Shown: positions 28,034 through 41,278 of the stretch, piece by piece | Position numbering within the stretch: the stretch's first letter is position 1 | Layout: every line of letters begins with the position of its first letter | DNA from: Clostridiales bacterium 38_11 | Lineage (GTDB): Bacteria; Bacillota; Clostridia; Tissierellales; Dethiosulfatibacteraceae | Assembly (NCBI GenBank): GCA_001509345.1 | Contig: LGGM01000004.1 | Span: forward strand, 1 to 41,278 | Reading direction: 5' to 3' | Length of the DNA stretch: 41,278 nucleotides | Program-made: the position numbers and the translations under genes | The notes under the pieces: generated by a model | Told to the model about the DNA's origin: nothing | What the model saw: only the letters and a program-made list of their open reading frames with translations | The model's database searches: none

Positions 28034-30148
28034 CTAAAGCAGTTTTTTACTGGCGTAATTTAAAAACTCCTCACCCTTTTGACTTATTCGACTACCTTGT
28101 TTGGTTTTACCAATGTCGACGTATCCAAGCTCCGCTAGGTTTTTTAACCATTTCTTTATTTTATGATCAGCAAATCCAATATCAGAATCCTTCAGTTTCT
28201 TCATCAATGTCTGTCTTCCTATTCCATTGTTTAAAACACCAGCATTGTGTATTTCGGTGAGTATCATGATTATAGGTCTCAGTATTTCCTGTTTTTTAAA
28301 GTTCTGCATAACCTCATCAAACTTAATATACTCTGATTGTGTCTTTGATATTTCATTATTAACTTCCGGGGGTTTTTCTTCACTGCGCATCATATAAAGA
28401 GGAAGATGCCTGATCGTAACCGTATCATCTGCTTCAACCATACTACACAGATATTTGACAACATTTTCTAACTCTCTTATATTACCTGGCCATGAATAAC
28501 TCAAAAAAAAGTCTTTTAGAGGATTCTCCAATATTAGATTTCTATTGTATAATTTATGTGAAAAATAATCAGTGAGAATTAATATATCGTTCCCTCTTGA
28601 TTTTAATTCCGGTATTTTGATAGGCAAAGTACATAGTCTATAAAATAAATCTCCTCTAAACTTGCCTGATTTCATCAGTGAATCGAGATTTTGATTTGTG
28701 GCTGCAATGACTCTTACATCAACAGGCGTAAGTGTATTGCCTCCAACTCGGCGTACCTTGTGCTCTTCAAGAACTCTCAAAAGACTTTTTTGAACCTCCA
28801 GTGAAGCATCTCCAATTTCATCTAGAAAAATTGTTCCCATATGTGCTTCCTCAAACAATCCTGCTTTTCCTTCTTTCTTTGCACCAGTAAAAGCACCCCC
28901 TTCGTATCCAAATAATTCACTCTCGACTAGTGAGTCTGGAAGCGCCGCAAAATTTATCGCTACAAAAGGATTGCTGTTTTGTTCAGAGTAATTGTGTATT
29001 GCTTGTGCAAAAATCTCTTTTCCTGTTCCGCTTTCACCTTCCAGTAGAATGGCTAACTTAGTTTTAGCAAACTTTTTCGCCATATTAACTGCCTTTAGGA
29101 CTTCTGTTGATTCACCAACAATATGGCCAAAAGTATAGTTGGCTAAATTCCCTTTCGATTTCAATTCTCTTCTGACTTTAGCCTCCAGTTCCTTTACTTC
29201 TCTTACAGGTCGAAAAATAGATACAATACCGGAAATTTCATTATCCTCGTCGAGAATGGGATTGGTGCTTAAAACGAAATAATTCCCATTTATATATCTT
29301 ATCTCATTGACAATGCTTTCACCGGTTTGAAGGCAATACGAAAAATCAACCTGAGGAAGAATTTCCCTTACATCTCTATTGGTTACCTGAATATAATTGA
29401 CACCAAGCAAATCTTCTGCAACATGGTTGAAAACAACAATTTTGTTGTCTTTATCGACAGAAACAATGGCTTCATCGACAGTATTGAGAATAACCTCAAT
29501 ATTCTTTTTCAATTCTTCATTTTTGCATGCCGTCTTGTAATGTTTGAGTCCTAAATTTAGTATTTCCTCAACATAATTATGAGAAATCCCATTGATAATC
29601 TCTCTTGGCAAGTTCAAATATTCAACCAATTCAACGAAAGTAGATAGCTCCAATCCTCGTGCACCTATATCGACAATATTCTTGATGCTATTCGGGACAA
29701 CATAGTTGACCCCTGGAGATATGGCCGTATCTATATCTGTCGGTATTTCAACCCCGCAGTTTAGAAAATAGGGTATCATCTTAAAATAATCAAATCCGTA
29801 TTCTTTTAATAAATTGATGGTAGTAAGCGCTACTTCCTCCCAATATCCAACAACTATAACCTTTGAACCTTGTGGAATCTGAAATAGTCTATCAAGATTG
29901 TTTATACCCAATGCCCGTGATGCTGTTATGATTAAGCTTTTAGATGGAAGTTGGTGCTCCACAATACCAAATACAGTCTTACTACCAGCTATGTAAATGT
30001 CACATGTCGGGTAGGGTAATATTTCTTCATGCTCAAGTATCCAAACATGAACATTGATATAATCTCCTAAGAATTCTACTAATTGTGCCTCTATGTGTCT
30101 TGCTGTAACTTCACTTCTCGAAATATAGCAAACTGTTTTTTTATCCAT
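28034..30148 (-). CDS. PrpR-type sigma-54-dependent activator
   Basis: A 704-residue enhancer-binding protein. Residues 1-190 look like the PrpR_N sensor domain of propionate/organic-acid regulators, followed by a PAS domain at about 212-315. The AAA+ domain has Walker A GESGTGKE 371-378, the sigma-54 contact GAFTGA 418-423, Walker B IFLDEIGD 440-447 and SWPGNIREL 552-560. The C-terminus (620-704) has no Fis-type helix-turn-helix but looks like a winged helix, with LAELGYVDIGKTKQGSRIS. It is third in an operon with two AbrB-type genes and is the obvious activator of the sigma-54 promoter downstream. Confidence 0.93.
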   Translation of the reverse strand: MDKKTVCYISRSEVTARHIEAQLVEFLGDYINVHVWILEHEEILPYPTCDIYIAGSKTVFGIVEHQLPSKSLIITASRALGINNLDRLFQIPQGSKVIVVGYWEEVALTTINLLKEYGFDYFKMIPYFLNCGVEIPTDIDTAISPGVNYVVPNSIKNIVDIGARGLELSTFVELVEYLNLPREIINGISHNYVEEILNLGLKHYKTACKNEELKKNIEVILNTVDEAIVSVDKDNKIVVFNHVAEDLLGVNYIQVTNRDVREILPQVDFSYCLQTGESIVNEIRYINGNYFVLSTNPILDEDNEISGIVSIFRPVREVKELEAKVRRELKSKGNLANYTFGHIVGESTEVLKAVNMAKKFAKTKLAILLEGESGTGKEIFAQAIHNYSEQNSNPFVAINFAALPDSLVESELFGYEGGAFTGAKKEGKAGLFEEAHMGTIFLDEIGDASLEVQKSLLRVLEEHKVRRVGGNTLTPVDVRVIAATNQNLDSLMKSGKFRGDLFYRLCTLPIKIPELKSRGNDILILTDYFSHKLYNRNLILENPLKDFFLSYSWPGNIRELENVVKYLCSMVEADDTVTIRHLPLYMMRSEEKPPEVNNEISKTQSEYIKFDEVMQNFKKQEILRPIIMILTEIHNAGVLNNGIGRQTLMKKLKDSDIGFADHKIKKWLKNLAELGYVDIGKTKQGSRISQKGEEFLNYASKKLL

Positions 30149-32050: not shown

Positions 32051-32452
32051 TTAATCTCTCTGGCAGAGCTCAACCAAAACACCATTGGTGCTTTTAGGAT
32101 GGCAAAAAGCTATCTTCGCTCCGCCTGCTCCGTATCTTGATTTTTCATCAATCATCTTAACACCTCTTGACAGCATGTCAGCGATTGCTTTCTCTATATC
32201 ATCGACTCGATATGCGATGTGTTGGACACCCTCGCCTTTCATATCAATATACTTGGCGATAGGTCCCTCCGCATCCGTTGATTCGAGCAGTTCAATCTCC
32301 GTATCACCTATAGGCAAAAAAGCAACCTTTACCTTTTGTTCTTCCACAATTTCAACACCATGCAATTCCAATCCGAGGGTTTCCTGATAATATTTCAGTG
32401 ATTCCTCAAGATTTTTTACCGCAACACCTATGTGATCTATTTTCGTAACCAT
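32051..32452 (-). CDS. mce: Methylmalonyl-CoA epimerase
   Basis: Interconverts (S)- and (R)-methylmalonyl-CoA. The 133-residue vicinal-oxygen-chelate protein has two beta-alpha-beta modules with metal ligands in KIDHIGVAV (His7), GVQHIAYRV and the C-terminal glutamate in GVLVELCQ. The ATG at 32452 follows AGGAGAC. It is part of a leftward operon with meaB and the two mutase genes, which places it in propionate/succinate interconversion. Confidence 0.95.
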   Translation of the reverse strand: MVTKIDHIGVAVKNLEESLKYYQETLGLELHGVEIVEEQKVKVAFLPIGDTEIELLESTDAEGPIAKYIDMKGEGVQHIAYRVDDIEKAIADMLSRGVKMIDEKSRYGAGGAKIAFCHPKSTNGVLVELCQRD

Positions 32453-32468: not shown

Positions 32469-33401
32469 TCATTTTATTGTTGACAGCAATCTATCCCTTA
32501 GTGTAAACGGATCTGTCTCCTTATTAAAGAGAATATCTGTCATACGATCCAGTTCGCCGTTGCTTTCTGTCTCTCTTATGACCAATTTTTTGAGTTCTTC
32601 TTCAACCAACTCAAGAAGCTCTCTCTTGATGTTCTTTTTTCTTCTTTCCTCTAAAAGACCATTTTCAACCAGATACTCATAATGCCTTTGTATTTCCTGC
32701 GCCATCTGGTCAATATTCTTATTCTGATTTGCAGTGACCATCACCACAGGAGGTCTTCTGTCTGTATTTTGACTCATATCCAGCATCATATTGATTTCTG
32801 TCGCTGTTCTTTGTGCGCCAAAAAGATCGCTTTTATTCACAACAAACAAATCACCAATTTCCATAATACCTGCCTTAATGGATTGAATATCATCTCCTAG
32901 ACCTGGTACCATCACCAATACAACTGTATCAGCTGCCTTTACAATATCAACCTCAGATTGTCCGACACCTACCGTTTCTATGATGATATAGTCACACCCA
33001 TAAGCATCCAGTATTTTAACAGCATTTCTGGTAGCCTTTGCCAATCCGCCCAGATAACCTCGAGTTCCCATGCTTCTGATGAACACACCGGGATCAAGCG
33101 CCAGATCGTTCATTCTGATTCTATCTCCCAGAATTGCGCCACCGGTATATGGGCTAGTTGGATCAACGGCTATAACACCCACTATGTAATCACTTTTTCT
33201 TAAAAGCTTTGCATATTTGTCTGTCAAAGTGCTCTTGCCGGCACCGGGAGGTCCTGTTATCCCTATGATATGAGCCTTTCCTGTGTATTTATATATTTTC
33301 TTAATCAGTTTTTCTGATTCTTTTTCGTCATTCTCAACAATGGAGATAAGACGCGCACAGGCCCTCTTATCTCCTTTTAGCATCTTATTAATCAATTCCA
33401 T
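32469..33401 (-). CDS. meaB: Methylmalonyl-CoA mutase-associated GTPase MeaB
   Basis: G-protein chaperone that protects the mutase and gates adenosylcobalamin loading; ArgK family, about 310 residues. It has the P-loop GITGPPGAGKST near residue 49, ETVGVGQSEVD as the switch region and the guanine motif NKSD. The in-frame TTG just upstream is rejected in favour of the ATG at 33401. It lies 20 bp after the small mutase subunit gene. Confidence 0.95.
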   Translation of the reverse strand: MELINKMLKGDKRACARLISIVENDEKESEKLIKKIYKYTGKAHIIGITGPPGAGKSTLTDKYAKLLRKSDYIVGVIAVDPTSPYTGGAILGDRIRMNDLALDPGVFIRSMGTRGYLGGLAKATRNAVKILDAYGCDYIIIETVGVGQSEVDIVKAADTVVLVMVPGLGDDIQSIKAGIMEIGDLFVVNKSDLFGAQRTATEINMMLDMSQNTDRRPPVVMVTANQNKNIDQMAQEIQRHYEYLVENGLLEERRKKNIKRELLELVEEELKKLVIRETESNGELDRMTDILFNKETDPFTLRDRLLSTIK

Positions 33402-33421
33402 CAAATCATCCCTTAATGTGT

Positions 33422-33817
33422 TTATCGTTTAATATTGTCTCTGATGAATTGAACAATCTCAGTTGTCAATGCACCTGGTGTGAATATAGCAGCCACTCCC
33501 GCTTCCTTCAGAGCAGGTATATCGTCTTCAGGTATGACGCCGCCCGCTATCACCATTATATCCTCTGCATCCTGATCTTTCAACAATCCTATGACCTTGG
33601 GAAACAAGTGATTGTGCGCACCGGATAAAATGCTCATGCCGATAATATCGACATCCTCCTGAATTGCTGCCGCTACTATTTGTTCAGGTGTTTGTCTAAG
33701 GCCTGTATAAATCACTTCCATACCTGCATCTCTTAAGGCTCTAGCTATCATTTTGGCCCCTCTGTCATGTCCGTCAAGACCAGGTTTTGCTACCAAAACT
33801 CTAATTGGTTTGTCCAT
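33422..33817 (-). CDS. Methylmalonyl-CoA mutase, cobalamin-binding small subunit
   Basis: A stand-alone B12-binding domain of 131 residues with the base-off motif DGHDRG (His near residue 17), SILSGAH and the GGVIPEDD loop. It supplies adenosylcobalamin to the separate catalytic subunit encoded 34 bp upstream. Two-gene mutases of this form are typical of Clostridia, archaea and other anaerobes. The ATG at 33817 follows AGGAGGAAAAA. Confidence 0.95.
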
Positions 33818-33851: not shown

Positions 33852-35531
33852 TTAAAGCATTACGCTTTGTTCATATTCGCCAAAAACTTCTCTCATAACA
33901 TCGCATATCTCACCTAAAGTGGCATATTCTCTGACAGCTTCAACTATATATGGCATAAGATTTTCAGTGCCTTCACATGCCTTTTTGAGAGCTGTCAGTT
34001 TTTCTGTAACTGCTGGATTATCTCTTTTTGCTTTTAATTCAACCAGTTTTTTCTTCTGCATCTCTCCAACCATAGGATCAACCTTCAATAACCCTTGTGG
34101 TGCTTTTTCATCGACCTTAAACTTATTCATGCCAACCACTACAACATCGCCTTTTTCAACATCCATTTGATATTTATACGCCGCATCTGTGATTTCCTTT
34201 TGGATATAACCGGCATCTATAGCCCTTGGTGCTCCACCCAATTCATCTATTTTGGTGATATATTCCATAGCCTTGTCTTCAATTTCTTTGGTCTTGGCTT
34301 CCACATAATATGAACCTGCCAGAGGATCCACCGTATTGGTGACTCCGCTTTCATAGGCTACTATCTGCTGTGTTCTCAATGCAATTCTTACTGAGTCTTC
34401 AGTCGGTAAGGCTAAAGCCTCATCTTTAGAGTTTGTATGTAGAGACTGGGTTCCTCCCAAAACAGCTGCCAGCGTTTGAATTGCAACTCGGACAATATTG
34501 TTATCTGGTTGCTGTGCTGTCAATGTAGATCCACCAGTCTGTGTGTGAAATTTAAGCATCATGGATTGCGGTTTCTTGGCCCCAAATCTTTCTTTCATTA
34601 TTTTCGCCCAAAGTCTCCTGGCTGCCCTATATTTTGCAACTTCTTCCAATAAATCATTGTGGGCATTAAAGAAAAACGAAAGTCTCGGTGCAAAAGAATC
34701 CACATCAAGCCCGGCTTTGATTGCCGCTTCAACATACGCTATACCATCCGCCAAAGTAAATCCTACTTCCTGGGCGGCTGTAGAACCTGCTTCCCTGATA
34801 TGGTATCCGGAAATACTGATGGTATTCCATTGAGGGACGTTCTCAGAACAGTAGGCAAATATGTCTGTTATCAGTCTCATTGATTCTTCTGTAGGATAGA
34901 TGTATGTTCCCCGTGCAATGTATTCTTTTAAAATATCGTTTTGAATAGTCCCTCTCAACTTTTCAGGAGATACACCTTGCTTGTCGGCAACAGCAATATA
35001 CATCGCCAACAGAACAGATGCGGGAGAGTTAATGGTCATGGATGTGCTGACTTTCTCCAAATTTATGCCATCAAAAAGAATCTCCATGTCTGCTAATGAA
35101 TCTATAGCAACACCCACCTTGCCCACTTCACCCTCAGCCAATGGGTGATCCGAGTCATAACCAATCTGGGTAGGAAGGTCAAAAGCGACGGATAGTCCTG
35201 TAGATCCCTGATCTACCAAAAATTTGTAACGTTTATTTGATTCCTCTGCAGTTGAAAAGCCGGCATACATTCTCATGGTCCATAATCTACCTCTATACAT
35301 GGTAGGTTGATAGCCACGTGTATAAGGGTATTGACCCGGTAAACCAATTTCTTCCATATAGTCCAAATCATCAATATCTTCAGGTGTATACAATCTTTCT
35401 ATTATATCTCCTGATCCAGTTTTAAACTCTTCTTTTCTCTCTGGTGATCTGGAAAGCGATTTGTTCAGATCCTTTTCTTCCCAGTTTTTTCTAGCTTCTT
35501 TTATTTGCTCAAATTTCTCTTTTTCAAACAT
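33852..35531 (-). CDS. Methylmalonyl-CoA mutase, catalytic subunit
   Basis: Radical enzyme that rearranges succinyl-CoA and methylmalonyl-CoA; 559 residues, normal for the TIM-barrel subunit without its B12 domain. It has [15 protein letters not shown] with the tyrosine-arginine region, [15 protein letters not shown] and [20 protein letters not shown], all as in methylmalonyl rather than isobutyryl or ethylmalonyl mutases. The ATG at 35531 follows GGAGG. With the CoA-transferase upstream it can link succinate to propionate metabolism. No biotin-dependent decarboxylase is seen in the window. Confidence 0.95.
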
Positions 35532-35591
35532 TAATTATACCTCCAAACGTACATTTATCATATTAAATTTATATTAAAAGCCTTTAAAATA

Positions 35592-35632
35592 CAAGATTTA
35601 ATGCAAAAATGATTTATTTATTTTAAATCTTG
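35592..35632. repeat. 10-bp inverted repeat upstream of the mutase gene
   Basis: CAAGATTTAA (35592-35601) and TTAAATCTTG (35623-35632) lie between the mutase start and the structured repeat. It may be a mutase operator or the boundary of the neighbouring element. Confidence 0.35.
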
Positions 35633-35635
35633 CAG

Positions 35636-35760
35636 GTTGCTTATCAACAGGGTTCTTGGGTTCAGATGGTGTTTGAAACACCACCTGAACCTTAGAGACC
35701 GTTATCCAGGGACAATACAGTGCGTATCTCCCACTTATAAAAGTGGGAGTCTTAGCACTG
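35636..35760 (-). mobile_element. Structured repeat resembling an IS200/IS605-type right end (omegaRNA-like)
   Basis: Two strong stem-loops. CAGTGC (35718-35723)/GCACTG (35755-35760) encloses CTCCCACTT/AAGTGGGAG. A second stem, GGTTCAG..CTGAACC, spans 35659-35691. On the minus strand the order of hairpin, spacer, hairpin and then ACCCTGTTGATAAGCAACC looks from memory like the 3' end of IS200/IS605-type tnpB elements in Clostridia. No tnpA or tnpB is present. It begins directly at the stop codon of the CoA-transferase. An 82-residue frame across it is probably not coding. Confidence 0.45.
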
Positions 35761-37236
35761 TTAGTCATCGGAAAACTCCAGAAAAACCGTCTCAAAATCA
35801 TGGGGTGTATGAACAAATTTTGATGTTCTAATTGCCCTTTCAACATATTCCCTCAATTGATTTTTAAAATCCGGATGGACACAGTTCTCAATAATCAGGT
35901 CTGCTCTCTCGGATGGATTGAGTCCTCTTAAATCAGCCAAGCCTTGTTCTGTGACCACAACCTGAACATCATGCTCAGTATGATCCACATGCCTGACGAA
36001 TGGCACTATACTGGAAATTTTGCCATCTTTTGCTGTAGAAACGGTTGTGAATATGGAGATATACCCATTGCGTGTAAAATCACCTGAGCCTCCGATACCG
36101 TTCATCATTCTTGTACCACCAATGTTGGTGGAGTTGACATTCCCATAAATATCGAATTCTATTGCAGTATTCATGGCGATCACACCAAGCCTTCTTATCA
36201 CTTCCGGGTTGTTGCTGATTTCTTGAGGTCTTAGAATTATTTTGTCTCTATACTTACCAAAATTTCTATAAAAATCATCTAGTCTTGAGGGTGAAATAGT
36301 CAGTGATGTCGCTGAAGCGAAATCAACTTTACCAGCATCTATCAAATCAAGTACTGAATCCTGTAAAACCTCTGAATATATTGTAAGATTTTTAAAATCG
36401 CATTCACATAACCCACCAAGTATTGCGTTTGCAACACTCCCCACACCAGACTGCAACGGCAGAAGCTTTTCGGGAATTCTGCCCGCTGTCTTTTCATCGT
36501 ACAGGAATTTGATGATGTGATTGGAAATTTTTCTTGAATCATCATCTATCAGAGTAACGTCTCTTGTTTTATCAATGATATCGGTGTAGACAATCGCTTT
36601 GATCTTTTCCGGATTACAGGGAATATAGGTGGTTCCTATTCTGTCATCAGGCTTAAAAATCGGAATTGCTTTTCTATTCGGTGGATTATCCAAACTGTAG
36701 ATATCATGAATTCCTTCCAGTGTTACCGGTTGGGATGTGTTTAGTTCAACGATTACCATATCTGCCATTTCAACCAGCACATTGGAATTGCCAATAGAGG
36801 TTGAGGGTATGATTCCACCGTTTTCCGTTATACCGATGGCTTCAACGATTACTACATCGATTTTGCCAAAAAACCCGTATTTAATCCACTGTGGCACATG
36901 ACTCAAATGCATGTCCGAATACTTTATGGATCCGTTATTGATCGCATCCCTCATGGATGCATTTGTTTGATAGGGGTACCTTCTTGCAATCACTCCCGAC
37001 CTGGTCAAAGCGCCATCCAATTCGTCTCCAACAGATGCTCCGGTAATCAAGGTTATCTTAATATCTTCTCCGTCTCCAGCTCTTTGGGCCAAGGCTAACG
37101 GGACTGCTTTCGGATAACCTGCCGGTGTAAATCCACTGGCACCAACTGTCATGCCGTCCTTTATCAGTTCCGCAGCTTTTTCAGCTGTCATTATTTTTTG
37201 GTTCAGTGTCTTGCATCTGATTCTTCCATCCAACAT
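35761..37236 (-). CDS. Acetyl-CoA hydrolase/transferase family protein (succinate/propionate:acetate CoA-transferase type)
   Basis: A 491-residue class I CoA-transferase of the Cat1/AarC group. Candidate catalytic Glu289 is in YSEVLQDSVLDLID, with the oxyanion-type glycine loops GASGFTPAGYPKA and GIGGSGDFTRNGY and the tail VTEQGLADLRGLNPSERA. It likely moves CoA between succinate, propionate and acetate, which would close the cycle with the adjacent mutase module. The ATG at 37236 follows TTGGAGG. It has its own promoter and a leader with a terminator-like hairpin. Confidence 0.9.
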   Translation of the reverse strand: MLDGRIRCKTLNQKIMTAEKAAELIKDGMTVGASGFTPAGYPKAVPLALAQRAGDGEDIKITLITGASVGDELDGALTRSGVIARRYPYQTNASMRDAINNGSIKYSDMHLSHVPQWIKYGFFGKIDVVIVEAIGITENGGIIPSTSIGNSNVLVEMADMVIVELNTSQPVTLEGIHDIYSLDNPPNRKAIPIFKPDDRIGTTYIPCNPEKIKAIVYTDIIDKTRDVTLIDDDSRKISNHIIKFLYDEKTAGRIPEKLLPLQSGVGSVANAILGGLCECDFKNLTIYSEVLQDSVLDLIDAGKVDFASATSLTISPSRLDDFYRNFGKYRDKIILRPQEISNNPEVIRRLGVIAMNTAIEFDIYGNVNSTNIGGTRMMNGIGGSGDFTRNGYISIFTTVSTAKDGKISSIVPFVRHVDHTEHDVQVVVTEQGLADLRGLNPSERADLIIENCVHPDFKNQLREYVERAIRTSKFVHTPHDFETVFLEFSDD

Positions 37237-37270
37237 GGATTTGTACCTCCAAAATGTTTATTAATTAAAT

Positions 37271-37378
37271 AAAAAATGCACGAAAAACGACTTCTATTGA
37301 TGTCGCTGACCGTGCATCATTCGCTTCAAAACAAGGGGATACCTCACTACTACGAACAATAGGGCATATTAATTAACT
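37271..37378 (-). promoter_or_regulatory. Leader with possible transcription attenuator, upstream of the CoA-transferase
   Basis: From the predicted start near 37378 the leader runs to a hairpin ATGCACG (37276-37282)/CGTGCAT (37311-37317) with an inner CGAC/GTCG stem, followed on the minus strand by T6. A competing pairing exists: CTATTG near the 5' end can pair with CAATAG inside the terminator stem. TTAATTAA occurs at both leader ends and can pair with itself. No known riboswitch class is recognised. Confidence 0.5.
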
Positions 37379-37384
37379 GAAGCC

Positions 37385-37413
37385 ATGATAAAACAATATC
37401 TTGAATCTGTCAA
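37385..37413 (-). promoter_or_regulatory. Sigma-A promoter of the CoA-transferase gene
   Basis: Minus-strand TTGACA (37408-37413), exactly 17 bp, TATCAT (37385-37390). It is about 150 bp before the start codon, giving a long untranslated leader. Confidence 0.8.
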
Positions 37414-37450
37414 GAAAAATTGCCACTTATGTATCTCTAACTAGGTTTTC

Positions 37451-37801
37451 TCAACTTTCTTCTTTTGAGAAAAAAATCGAGTCAAATTTCTTTTTGCAGT
37501 TTTGAACAGCTGTTTTGACAGCTTTTTTTGCAGATCCGAAATAAGAAATGTCAATCACATTTTCTATTTCATCCATCTGATTGATATTATTTCCAACCAG
37601 CATACGCGACACAAACTTGTTTGCCAATTGTGTGGACAAAGTGCATTCCGCTTCCAGTATCTCTCCTGTTTCAGATTTAATCAGAAGTCCAACTGCAATC
37701 ACTTCATACATCTTGCTGGCAGTGATATTTGTAGGTAGTTTCGCATAGCCGGTAACAAAAATCTCTTCCGCCAAAATCTGGTTCATATCCTTATTCGTCA
37801 T
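37451..37801 (-). CDS. DUF3870 domain protein
   Basis: A 116-residue protein matching the DUF3870 pattern FVTGYAKLPTNITASKMYEVI, ECTLSTQLANKFVSRML and IENVIDISYFGSAKKAVKTA. The function is unknown; this domain often stands beside CoA-transferase and thioesterase genes in anaerobes. The ATG overlaps the thioesterase stop as ATGA, so the two are coupled. No clear terminator separates it from the promoter of the CoA-transferase gene. Confidence 0.85.
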   Translation of the reverse strand: MTNKDMNQILAEEIFVTGYAKLPTNITASKMYEVIAVGLLIKSETGEILEAECTLSTQLANKFVSRMLVGNNINQMDEIENVIDISYFGSAKKAVKTAVQNCKKKFDSIFFSKEES

Positions 37802-38175
37802 TGCTTGATAAATTCAGAAATATTAATGATAAATCTATCGTGAGTACCCTCTCCGATTGTTTTTTCATCTGTGAATGTCTTAACGCTAAAAGTCAGTTTT
37901 TTTCTGTCAATGGCTATTAGTTCACACGCTGTAAAATAAGTGCCATCTATGGCAACAGACGCACGGTGTGAAACATTGACATGTGTTCCTACTGTGCTGT
38001 ATCCTTCCGGTAAATATGGCTGAACACAAGCTGCACAAGTACCTTCCATGACACCTATCATAACAGGTGTGGCTAAAACCTCAACCAATCCACTACCAAA
38101 AGAAGCAGCTGTATCTTTATATGCTACAACTTTCTCAACACTATGCTTAAGTCCTATTTTCAAATCAAAATCCAT
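37798..38175 (-). CDS. FlK-like hotdog thioesterase
   Basis: A 125-residue hotdog-fold protein similar to fluoroacetyl-CoA thioesterase FlK. The likely catalytic residues are the glutamate in IGVMEGTC and the histidine in VGTHVNVSHRA, with a threonine in LATPVMIG. It probably hydrolyses or guards against a short acyl-CoA. It is second in the glutaredoxin-thioesterase-DUF3870 operon, two bases after the glutaredoxin gene. The ATG at 38175 follows AAGGAG. Confidence 0.85.
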   Translation of the reverse strand: MDFDLKIGLKHSVEKVVAYKDTAASFGSGLVEVLATPVMIGVMEGTCAACVQPYLPEGYSTVGTHVNVSHRASVAIDGTYFTACELIAIDRKKLTFSVKTFTDEKTIGEGTHDRFIINISEFIKQ

Positions 38176-38177
38176 AT

Positions 38178-38408
38178 TTACTCCTTAATCAATTCATCTA
38201 ATTTCGCTTTATTGAAACCTTCTATGACTTTATCATCTACCAGAATTATGGGGACGCCCATATAACCCATGCCCATTAATTCTTTTCTAGCTTCCATATC
38301 AGTTGATACATTTTTTTCGATGTATTCAATGCCCTTTGATTTCAAATAATCTTTGGCTGAAACACAATGAGGGCAAGTATTGCTTGAATATACGACTATT
38401 TTTGACAT
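38178..38408 (-). CDS. Glutaredoxin-like protein
   Basis: A 76-residue thioredoxin-fold protein with the redox motif SSNTCPHCVSAKDYL at residues 8-22, a TVP-like cis-proline in YMGVPIILV and GFNKAKLDELI at the end, typical of NrdH/glutaredoxin-like proteins. It reduces disulfides or mixed thiols in the cytosol. It opens the small operon; the ATG at 38408 follows AGGAGG. Confidence 0.9.
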   Translation of the reverse strand: MSKIVVYSSNTCPHCVSAKDYLKSKGIEYIEKNVSTDMEARKELMGMGYMGVPIILVDDKVIEGFNKAKLDELIKE

Positions 38409-38480
38409 GTTGCACCTCCTTTTTTGTTTATTTTACCATAATAGAATTAATATTTCTATAGCTTTGCCCTTTTATGAGAA

Positions 38481-38509
38481 TTTACTTTCTTCCATAATTT
38501 TGTTAATAT
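38481..38509 (+). promoter_or_regulatory. Candidate promoter of the flavoprotein gene
   Basis: TTTACT (38481-38486), 17 bp and TAATAT (38504-38509), 46 bp before the ATG at 38555. Both boxes are moderate. The divergent glutaredoxin operon starts from the same 146-bp gap. Confidence 0.45.
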
Positions 38510-38554
38510 GATTATCATAAGTTTCTTAGTACCAAAAGAATCGGAGGTGTTCAA

Positions 38555-40078
38555 ATGCTAATCAATCAAACAGGTCAATACGACGTGGTTGTCGTTGGTG
38601 GCGGTTTATCGGGAATGCATGCTGCTATTGAATCCAGTAGAAACGGTGCAAAGGTCGCTGTCATATCAAAGAAAAAGACTGGAAAATCAGGGTCTTCTGT
38701 GGTTTCAAAATCCATCCATAGATTTGCGCCAACTGATCTGTCTATGCAAAGCGTTTATCTCAAAAAGGCATTGGAAGCCGGTAGATTTATTAATGACAGG
38801 GAACTTATGAAAGTTTTAATCAATAAGGGATCTGATTCAGTTGAAAATCTATTATTATATTTACCTAGTCTATATTTTAACAGCAAATCACTTGATGAGA
38901 TGTTATATAGTAATATTTCCTATCACAATCCCAAGAAGGGCGTTTTTCTGACCTCTAAAATTAGAGAATACATAGAGAAACATACCTGTATATCTATTTT
39001 TGATGGATTTACAGCTGTGGAAATAATGACAAAAGGCAATTCTGTCTGTGGCTTGATTGTGGAAAACAACAATGAGCTCCAATATTTCTCAGCCAAATCT
39101 ATCATATTGGCAACCGGTGGATATGCTTATATATACAAAGAGACCAGCACAACAAACGATGAAACGGGAGATGGCATCGCTATGGCATTGAGAAAAGGCC
39201 TTCCTTTATCCGACATGGAGTTTGTCCAATTCTATCCCTATCGTGTTGTGTCCCCAGCTATTCATGATATCTTTCCAAATCTTTTCAGTGAAGGGGCTGT
39301 ATTCCTTAACGAGAAAAACGAAAGATTTATGGATGATTTTCCCAATAAAGAGTTAGAAAACAGAGATGTTTTAGCCAGAGAGATATTCAAGCAAAAGGAA
39401 GTTTTCTTAAATCTCGATAATTGCTCTGTCCCTTACCTTTTGAAAGAATCTCCCGAATTGCTCAAAATCCAAGAAAAGTATCCTGGTGCACCACTGAAAG
39501 TCGTGCCAAAAGCACATTTTTCAATGGGAGGAATACGAATTCAATCAGACTGTTCGACAGATTTAGGTGGCTTTTTTGCCTGTGGAGAAGTAACCGGTGG
39601 ACTGCACGGCGCAAATCGCCTAGCAGGCTATGCCTTGACGGAAACAGCTGTTTTCGGTCCTATTGCGGGCAGAAATGCAGCTTTATATGCCCAAAGCAAA
39701 AAACAAGAGGATATTACTCCAGGAGCGGCTTTCTTACCTCAAATTGGCCAAGACGACATTAAACCAATCAAGCGCCAACTTAGAGATGTCATGTGGGAGA
39801 AAGCAGGTATTGTCAAAAGCAAAAAAACGCTATTGGAGGCTCAAACCACAATTTCAGAATTGAAGTCTCTATTGGGAAAATCCCAACCCTACAAACTTAA
39901 AGATTGGGTTGAGGCCTACAATATGTTGAACTTGGCAGCTATCATGATAGAATCTTCATTGCTTAGAAAGGAAAGCCGGGGTGCCCATTTCAGATCAGAT
40001 TATCCCGATGAAAATGACGCATTTTTAGGTAATTTCATTTATCAACAGGGTTCTGATATGGATTTCAATAAGCTTTAG
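38555..40078 (+). CDS. FAD-binding protein of the fumarate reductase/L-aspartate oxidase family
   Basis: A 507-residue soluble flavoprotein. The dinucleotide motif is VVVGGGLSGMHAAIESS at residue 12, with ATGGYAYIY near 185 and the C-terminal FAD-binding HGANRLAG near 355. It covers the FAD and capping domains but has only a short helical tail. The usual QFHPT substrate histidine is replaced: the segment reads EFVQFYPYRVV. This argues against a standard fumarate reductase or aspartate oxidase. It has its own promoter and ribosome binding site (CGGAGG), and ends facing the NuoG-like gene. Confidence 0.85.
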   Translation: MLINQTGQYDVVVVGGGLSGMHAAIESSRNGAKVAVISKKKTGKSGSSVVSKSIHRFAPTDLSMQSVYLKKALEAGRFINDRELMKVLINKGSDSVENLLLYLPSLYFNSKSLDEMLYSNISYHNPKKGVFLTSKIREYIEKHTCISIFDGFTAVEIMTKGNSVCGLIVENNNELQYFSAKSIILATGGYAYIYKETSTTNDETGDGIAMALRKGLPLSDMEFVQFYPYRVVSPAIHDIFPNLFSEGAVFLNEKNERFMDDFPNKELENRDVLAREIFKQKEVFLNLDNCSVPYLLKESPELLKIQEKYPGAPLKVVPKAHFSMGGIRIQSDCSTDLGGFFACGEVTGGLHGANRLAGYALTETAVFGPIAGRNAALYAQSKKQEDITPGAAFLPQIGQDDIKPIKRQLRDVMWEKAGIVKSKKTLLEAQTTISELKSLLGKSQPYKLKDWVEAYNMLNLAAIMIESSLLRKESRGAHFRSDYPDENDAFLGNFIYQQGSDMDFNKL

Positions 40079-40087
40079 AATAAATGA

Positions 40088-40111
40088 GAGCGGGGGTCTT
40101 CACACCCGCTC
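40088..40111. terminator. Hairpin between convergent flavoprotein and NuoG-like genes
   Basis: GAGCGGGGGT and ACACCCGCTC form a 10-bp stem with one mismatch and a 4-nt loop in the 42-bp gap. The U-tracts are weak on both sides, so it may be a bidirectional terminator of moderate strength. Confidence 0.6.
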
Positions 40112-40120
40112 AATACTTAT

Positions 40121-41278
40121 TTATGCTTGTGGCACCAGATAGTTGATAAACTCATTAAACATGTCATAATTGGATTTGCCCGTTTTAGGTTTGATTGCCA
40201 TATTTGTCTTTTGTACTGTACCATCAGTCCTAGTCAGGGTTCCTGAGCTTTCAGCCAGGCTTACAAGTGGCAATACCAGATTGGCCTTTTCTGTCAGATC
40301 ATTTGGAAACATACTCATTGCTACCAGATATTCCACATCTATTTCAGATATATCCACCTCTTCCTCACCAATGACCACCAAAGCTTTAATGCTTCCACCC
40401 TTTGCCTTAGATAATATTTCATTACCTGATTTTATAAATCCCAGATCTATAGCGCCCTGAGCATTAGCTTCTTTTTTTAGAGTTAGCAATCCTCTATGCG
40501 GTTTATTAATCTTTCTGGTTGTGACAGCCATTTCTTTCAGCAGTTTCTGAATAGTCGGTGATACCGTAAGCTCATCAATCACAATAATCGGTTTATTCGC
40601 CTTCTTATAAGCATTGGCTATTTGCTCAGCTTGATTATTCCCCAATACGTTTTTGTTTTTTCCTGTCAAGTATCCAAGAACATCTGTAAACAATGTCTCC
40701 AAATTTTGTGCCTGATAAGATGCATTGGAGAAATGATCCAATCTGGTTCCATTGGTTGATACTGAAATTAACGGTCTTTTCAGGTTTTTAATTTTGACGC
40801 CCATTGGAGCGAAGCTCTCATAGACATTGCCAACTGCAAGTATCAATTCCGCGTTATTTAATTCCTCATATTTAACAGTGGATTGGGCATCACTGCCTGT
40901 AACATTGACTGAACCAATCATATTGGTCTCAAGCTGTGTGCTCAATTCTCTAACCAGTGCCAGCTCTTCATTGGTCAGACTCTGAGAAACAAGAAATCCG
41001 ATGCTATCTTTACCATGCAAATATTTAATCGACTTAAGCTTCAACACAAATTCAATTTTTACATCCTCAAAGCTTATGTCTGTGTTGACGCTTTTAATTT
41101 TTACGGATGGTCTGGTGATTCTATTTGATTTATTGATATAATCAAACTCAAACTTACCCATCTTGCATAATACACCGTCATCTTTCAGTCTGTTTGGCGT
41201 CACCTTGTAAATCAGTTGACCTTCATGCTGATAAATCACATTGCATCCAAGAGAGCAACTTGAGCATACTCCCTCGGT
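40121..41278 (-). CDS. NuoG-like molybdopterin-oxidoreductase-fold subunit, 5' end beyond window
   Basis: The frame is open to the right edge, giving 385 visible residues. The visible start contains a [4Fe-4S] motif, CSSCSLGC, followed by LIYKVTPNRLKDDGVLCKMGKFEFDY, as in the molybdopterin-type part of NADH-quinone oxidoreductase subunit G and related hydrogenase or NADH-dehydrogenase subunits. The rest is the Mo-bis-MGD-like fold, short in this form and probably without cofactor. The missing N-terminal part is expected to carry further Fe-S clusters. A GTG at 41239 lies after this motif and is not the true start. Confidence 0.8.
   Translation of the reverse strand, partial: TEGVCSSCSLGCNVIYQHEGQLIYKVTPNRLKDDGVLCKMGKFEFDYINKSNRITRPSVKIKSVNTDISFEDVKIEFVLKLKSIKYLHGKDSIGFLVSQSLTNEELALVRELSTQLETNMIGSVNVTGSDAQSTVKYEELNNAELILAVGNVYESFAPMGVKIKNLKRPLISVSTNGTRLDHFSNASYQAQNLETLFTDVLGYLTGKNKNVLGNNQAEQIANAYKKANKPIIVIDELTVSPTIQKLLKEMAVTTRKINKPHRGLLTLKKEANAQGAIDLGFIKSGNEILSKAKGGSIKALVVIGEEEVDISEIDVEYLVAMSMFPNDLTEKANLVLPLVSLAESSGTLTRTDGTVQKTNMAIKPKTGKSNYDMFNEFINYLVPQA

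Follow-up and report, generated by a model that had tools for sequence, protein, structure and literature searches.

How a CoA-transferase gene can be expressed when a transcription terminator stands between its own promoter and its start codon is the question raised by this locus, which lies on the minus strand of a 41,278-nt stretch of contig LGGM01000004.1 (the whole stretch is hereafter called the window). An earlier note on this DNA had proposed a riboswitch or attenuator; the attenuator part of that proposal stood, as the terminator and an antiterminator are conserved and covary, while the riboswitch part was not borne out, given the varied operons that follow the element and its constant protein partner.

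Promoter, leader and terminator of the CoA-transferase operon

All the features described here are on the minus strand. A sigma-70-type promoter (37385..37413) is formed by the boxes TTGACA (37413-37408) and TATCAT (37390-37385), separated by a 17-nt spacer; with 11 of 12 positions matching, it ranked first among the 23 promoter-like sites detected in a scan of positions 35000-41278, and was found as the earlier note had first described it. The leader RNA (37271..37378), counted to the last T of the T-run, has about 108 nt, its 5' end being approximate and inferred from the -10 box, and its folding was better than that of 198 out of 200 shuffled sequences (z = -2.98). The intrinsic terminator (37271..37318) has its left arm, GAUGCACGG, at 37318-37310; the left-arm sequence AUGCACGG pairs with CGUGCAU, followed by T6 (37276-37271). 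About 34-35 nt separate this T6 from the ATG at 37236, with a Shine-Dalgarno GGAGG in between (37246..37250), so that the earlier description of a leader of some 110 nt ending in a terminator-type hairpin about 35 bp before the start codon was confirmed. An interrupted stem kept this hairpin from being picked up in a simple terminator scan.

Among 60 relatives searched at the DNA level, four were found to have the leader, with the core, P2 (see below) and terminator conserved, and equivalent -35 and -10 boxes were present in relatives G001, G002, G003 and G006. The leader upstream of the CoA-transferase gene is real: promoter, leader and terminator are kept in the four relatives, the conservation on which the earlier claim depended. 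In G001 (L002 ~1645-1800, G001:C19), an insert of about 150 bp lies between the T-run and the ribosome-binding site of the CoA-transferase gene; it contains several short perfect hairpins and looks like a small mobile repeat with putative IS200/IS605-like ends.

The first gene controlled encodes a succinyl-CoA:acetate CoA-transferase (ScpC/YgfH; 35761..37236; NF053853, 724 bits, cut-off 500). The operon continues with genes identified by profile matches as the large subunit (33852..35531) and the B12-binding subunit (33422..33817) of methylmalonyl-CoA mutase and the MeaB GTPase (32469..33404), followed by an open reading frame (32051..32452) for a probable glyoxalase-like methylmalonyl-CoA epimerase, a name taken from reading the sequence and not from a model search. 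Directly 5' of the leader is a DUF3870 gene (37451..37801), proposed below to encode a trans-acting antiterminator, the product of which exceeded the gathering score of PF12986 (98.4 bits, cut-off 22; E = 2.8e-28). Its immediate 5' neighbors on the same strand (37798-38408) are genes for an FlK-type (fluoroacetyl-CoA) thioesterase-like protein and a YruB-like glutaredoxin. Elsewhere in the window (28034-30148), by open reading frames only, a sigma-54-dependent activator adjoins an aconitase/isocitrate-dehydrogenase-like operon and a tripartite tricarboxylate transporter system.

The antiterminator hairpin and its covariation

The alternative fold of the leader is a long antiterminator hairpin, composed of P0, a 1 x 3-nt internal loop, P1 and P2, whose 3' side is the left arm of the terminator. 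In P0, GCC (37363..37365) pairs with GGU (37311-37309), which overlaps the terminator region; the internal loop sets a single unpaired C (37362) opposite CAC (37314-37312); P1 joins UAUUGUUCGU (37352..37361) to GCGAAUGAUG (37315..37324), and P2 is the hairpin AGUGAGG-UAUCC-CCUUGUU (37330..37348). P0 was obtained in the minimum free energy (MFE) structure of the nascent leader and covaries in relatives, P1 is supported by MFE and covariation, and P2 by the alignment and MFE. Neither P0 nor the base of P1 can form together with the terminator. When the nascent RNA was cut at the terminator left arm, the MFE structure of the window leader and of three related ones (L035, L055 and L197) was exactly P0, the 1 x 3 loop, P1 and P2; energy folding of the full-length transcript yielded the terminator. 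In L016 and L205 the cut fell elsewhere than at the left arm, and these two leaders are left out of the comparison.

The element occurs in two subtypes. Type A, to which the window belongs, has the pattern xCC-C-UAUUGUUCGU...GCGAAUGAUG-CAC-GGx with the terminator left arm given above, and type B has xxUG-C-UUUAUUU...AAAUAAA-ACC-CAxx with the left arm AAAACCCAxx; the internal loop measures 1 x 3 nt in type B (C/ACC), as it does in the window, and is larger in some type A relatives. A covariation check on related leaders, asked for in the earlier note and carried out here with shuffled and slid alignments as controls, found P0 and P1 to covary in both subtypes. The type B arms scored 0.327, against 0.210 ± 0.016 in shuffled and at most 0.113 in slid alignments, and the full, larger type B alignment 0.312 against at most 0.126 when slid; many of these arms were picked partly for pairing, so the percentage paired in type B is biased upward. 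Type A scored 0.374 against at most 0.160 when slid, a small set (n = 7) in which 5 of 500 shuffles were equally high. Five loci (L154, L155, L189, L197 and L205) entered the set through the adjacent protein and not through the RNA. What defines an intrinsic attenuator was thus found, namely a terminator and a mutually exclusive antiterminator, both conserved and with covariation.

This pairing replaces the one suggested before. The letters of the proposed CTATTG/CAATAG switch are present, but relatives do not keep the CAATAG half, which rules the switch out as the functional alternative pairing; nor are the TTAATTAA ends conserved that were thought to close the leader. Both were dropped in favor of the conserved P0 and extended P1.

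Distribution of the leader family and its association with DUF3870

A covariance model built from five leaders (R1) matched further families of the order, upstream of genes for CoA-transferases, DUF3870 and sodium:dicarboxylate symporters, and a second model (R2) extended the family to operons for L-Ala-D/L-Glu epimerase, M20 dipeptidase, DUF819 and thiolase/CoA-transferase. A pattern scan of named genomes gave many chance matches, of which only those with a complementary terminator were kept; by gene names read from the sequence, these precede dppA/dppB-type genes in Paenibacillus, Brevibacillus and Aneurinibacillus, a peptidase gene in Sporomusa and a methylmalonyl-CoA mutase gene in a Clostridiaceae MAG. 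Overall, the first genes behind the element encode enzymes (CoA-transferases, methylmalonyl-CoA mutase, M20 peptidase, dipeptide-epimerase-type enolase, D-glutamate-cyclase-like protein, class I/II and III aminotransferases, PrpF, AMP-binding ligase, ATP-grasp CoA ligase, amidohydrolase and nitroreductase) or transporters (SCFA, SDF, SSF, EamA, DUF819 and Asp-Al exchanger family permease), and related elements also precede D-aminopeptidase genes. In L065 (JAQZBM010000143.1, 135-6882) the order is DUF3870, element, SDF symporter, class III aminotransferase, BKACE-like protein (a sequence reading), element, thiolase and CoA-transferase, a compact catabolic cluster that suggests the breakdown of a beta-amino acid.

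Scans of the window and of 28 loci detected nothing above the gathering threshold of Rfam 15 at the element, which agrees with the earlier impression that no known riboswitch class was recognizable; this is a conserved, covarying leader family absent from Rfam 15. The open-access literature, the part covered here, held no relevant description of a dpp, epimerase or DUF3870 leader, and mentioned DUF3870 only incidentally, in one paper. Orphan riboswitch candidates such as those of two papers (PMC2864571, PMC6429828) resemble the present leader in being structured leaders 5' of metabolic and transport genes in Firmicutes, but differ from it in that a constant protein partner is found here; a term search of the two papers (dipeptide, aminopeptidase and others) gave no matching motif. 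Its one hit, the TIGR03647 symporter motif in PMC6429828, is a candidate separate from the DUF3870-linked leader.

That partner was evident when all the loci were searched with the DUF3870 profile: the gene lies beside the element nearly everywhere, usually ending no more than 50 nt 5' of it, and its stop codon often touches the element directly (zero gap in Paenibacillus). PF12986 was present in all 20 of the RNA-positive genomes tested vs none of 14 control genomes, and in seven of seven further RNA-positive genomes, including the named Paenibacillus, Brevibacillus, Aneurinibacillus, Sporomusa and Anaerosalibacter; as background, 24 of 391 Clostridia carry DUF3870 (~6%). Outside the training set, 11 of the R2 matches in DUF3870 loci were on the same strand as the DUF3870 gene and no more than 47 nt behind its stop codon, with one exception in which the element is just 5' of DUF3870.

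A third model (R3) contained the antiterminator only, the terminator being left out, and its matches were judged for the terminator by eye on the sequences before the genomes were checked. Within the class sample, the eight genomes with a complementary terminator (five in the training set; G251, G218 and G348 outside it) were all DUF3870-positive, and the six without a terminator were all negative. A fresh sample of the phylum gave 13 R3 matches, eight of them with a terminator; DUF3870 was within 1.5 kb in five of these, and in the other genomes (G1002, G781 and G696) it was found elsewhere, as predicted beforehand, vs none of the three unconfirmed matches tested alongside. A distant DUF3870 gene in three genomes is what a trans-acting partner would give.

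Altogether, DUF3870 was present in 38 of 38 genomes found through an RNA with a matching terminator (20 + 7 + 3 + 8), and absent from all ten of those checked genome-wide among the 12 genomes with unconfirmed RNA matches. Eleven R3 matches without a matching terminator (G248, G428, G384, G281, G360, G470, G972, G951, G745, G917 and G1036) were rated as false positives, DUF3870 being checked in the locus only for G917 and G1036, and an R2 match in a DUF3870-negative genome (G381) was judged likewise, as it is a plain terminator with no P0 or P1. Some DUF3870 genes have no recognizable element directly 3' of them (e.g. L192 and L213), and the RNA models matched only part of the 24 DUF3870-bearing Clostridia genomes.

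These data bear on whether the leader is itself the sensor, that is, a true riboswitch whose P0-P1-P2 aptamer binds a metabolite, with DUF3870 as a co-regulated pathway protein such as a carrier or enzyme. This explanation would suit a leader that is structured and conserved, carries an expression platform and lacks an Rfam match, and also the co-transcription of DUF3870 in some operons, where its stop codon abuts the element (Paenibacillus). We nevertheless regard it as unlikely: few unpaired positions are conserved, about 4 nt in all (C with ACC or CAC) besides a variable second loop, the element is common to operons of unrelated substrates, and DUF3870 is the one constant partner, sometimes at a distant locus. 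The ligand put forward earlier, a CoA ester, succinate or propionate, found no support, since the substrates handled by the genes behind the element are unrelated (dipeptides, D-amino-acid peptides, beta-amino acids, short-chain fatty acids and propionate); a single CoA-ester ligand was judged unlikely once the dipeptide, peptidase and symporter operons had turned up. The first genes are too varied for a single metabolite to serve them all easily, whereas a family of sensor proteins can, and protein-dependent attenuation is the best reading, preferred over a CoA-ester riboswitch.

DUF3870 as the probable regulator

DUF3870 is probably the regulator working the leader, by putative binding to the RNA. 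The AlphaFold model of the window protein, built with 56 aligned sequences, had a pLDDT of 89, and its best match in the PDB comparison was borderline (VIA Z 8.8, to IscU-like), lipoate-ligase C-domain arrangements being borderline as well. No known antiterminator fold was among the structural matches listed, nor did the PDB comparison of this predicted model give a clear resemblance to a known RNA-binding fold. The window protein matched DUF3870 only, plus one chance family, and sequence searches with DUF3870 listed no other informative family.

A single change of RNA type is seen on the tree of DUF3870 proteins (support 99/95; 0 of 500 shuffles). Both types occur within family f58, and G001 holds one type A and one type B pair; the element subtype tracks the DUF3870 clade and not the species. 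This match could stem from molecular recognition or from co-inheritance of a linked cassette whose parts make no contact. One open reading frame in G001 (L177/L180, G001:C5:20-703) contains two DUF3870 domains in tandem, a hint of a dimeric functional unit.

The leader might instead be worked by some other trans-acting factor (an RNA-binding protein, a small RNA or NusA/NusG-dependent kinetics), with DUF3870 modulating it or merely linked. That direct binding by DUF3870 is putative and that its modeled fold gives no RNA-binding signature speak for such a factor, but the loci read have no second constant neighbor gene and DUF3870 was correctly predicted in three genomes that encode it away from the element, so that we hold this to be improbable. 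That the hairpin just ends the transcription unit of the upstream DUF3870 gene, readthrough being incidental, would fit its position close behind the DUF3870 stop codon but is very improbable, as the window element has its own promoter upstream, P0 and P1, the competitors of the terminator, covary, and some elements have DUF3870 downstream or elsewhere.

Starting from what is demonstrated, a conserved and covarying structure that excludes the terminator and the association of DUF3870 with the RNA, we consider it likely that the leader is an attenuator worked by DUF3870 as a substrate-sensing antiterminator, the RNA binding, the metabolite sensing and the ON sign being the inferred parts. By default, RNA polymerase would form the terminator and stop before the CoA-transferase gene. 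DUF3870, encoded just 5', would sense a substrate or intermediate of the operon pathway, and would bind and stabilize the nascent hairpin of P0, the 1 x 3 internal loop, P1 and P2; as this hairpin consumes the terminator left arm, readthrough into the propionate/succinyl-CoA operon is proposed to follow. Across Firmicutes, catabolic operons for dipeptides, amino acids and organic acids may be under the control of this cassette, in versions whose leaders have diverged and whose DUF3870 proteins are paralogues.

The arrangement recalls the BglG/LicT/SacT proteins, whose genes lie in or beside the catabolic operon controlled and whose ribonucleic antiterminator (RAT) is a hairpin with asymmetric internal loops overlapping the terminator left arm. 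Both features have their likeness here, together with a weak sequence echo (ACUGC...AAAACC) and sub-threshold matches to the Rfam bglG-cis-reg models in L016 and L032, but the present leader has longer helices (P1 of 8-10 bp plus P2) and DUF3870 as its protein. A RAT of the BglG/LicT type (RF03530) was rejected, as the scores were 26-31 bits (best 30.6) vs a gathering threshold of 80, and the families listed for 56 DUF3870 proteins included neither CAT_RBD nor PRD. HutP, PyrR and TRAP-type proteins of Bacillus are metabolite-sensing RNA-binding attenuation proteins; DUF3870, as proposed, would resemble them as a small protein exerting substrate-responsive control of a leader terminator, but the RNA site differs, and no DUF3870 sequence match to these families was among those listed at E up to 1.

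On balance, we also favor the broader view that DUF3870 is a large unrecognized family of substrate-sensing RNA-binding antiterminators, in which paralogues with different ligand pockets, each with its cognate P0-P1-P2 leader, would provide modular post-initiation control of peptide, amino-acid and organic-acid catabolism in Firmicutes. If true, this would give a function to an uncharacterized protein family, add a new leader-RNA family and allow regulons to be predicted for operons with poorly known transporters (DUF819, SDF, SCFA and SSF) and substrates. Few families are known for protein-dependent antitermination, and a modular one with numerous paralogues and targets would open direct tests of RNA-protein specificity and of the way in which operons exchange ligand sensing. 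In one genome (G036; L175, 1834-1940, minus strand), a second element lies directly 5' of the DUF3870 start, besides the one downstream, which suggests autoregulation of the DUF3870 gene.
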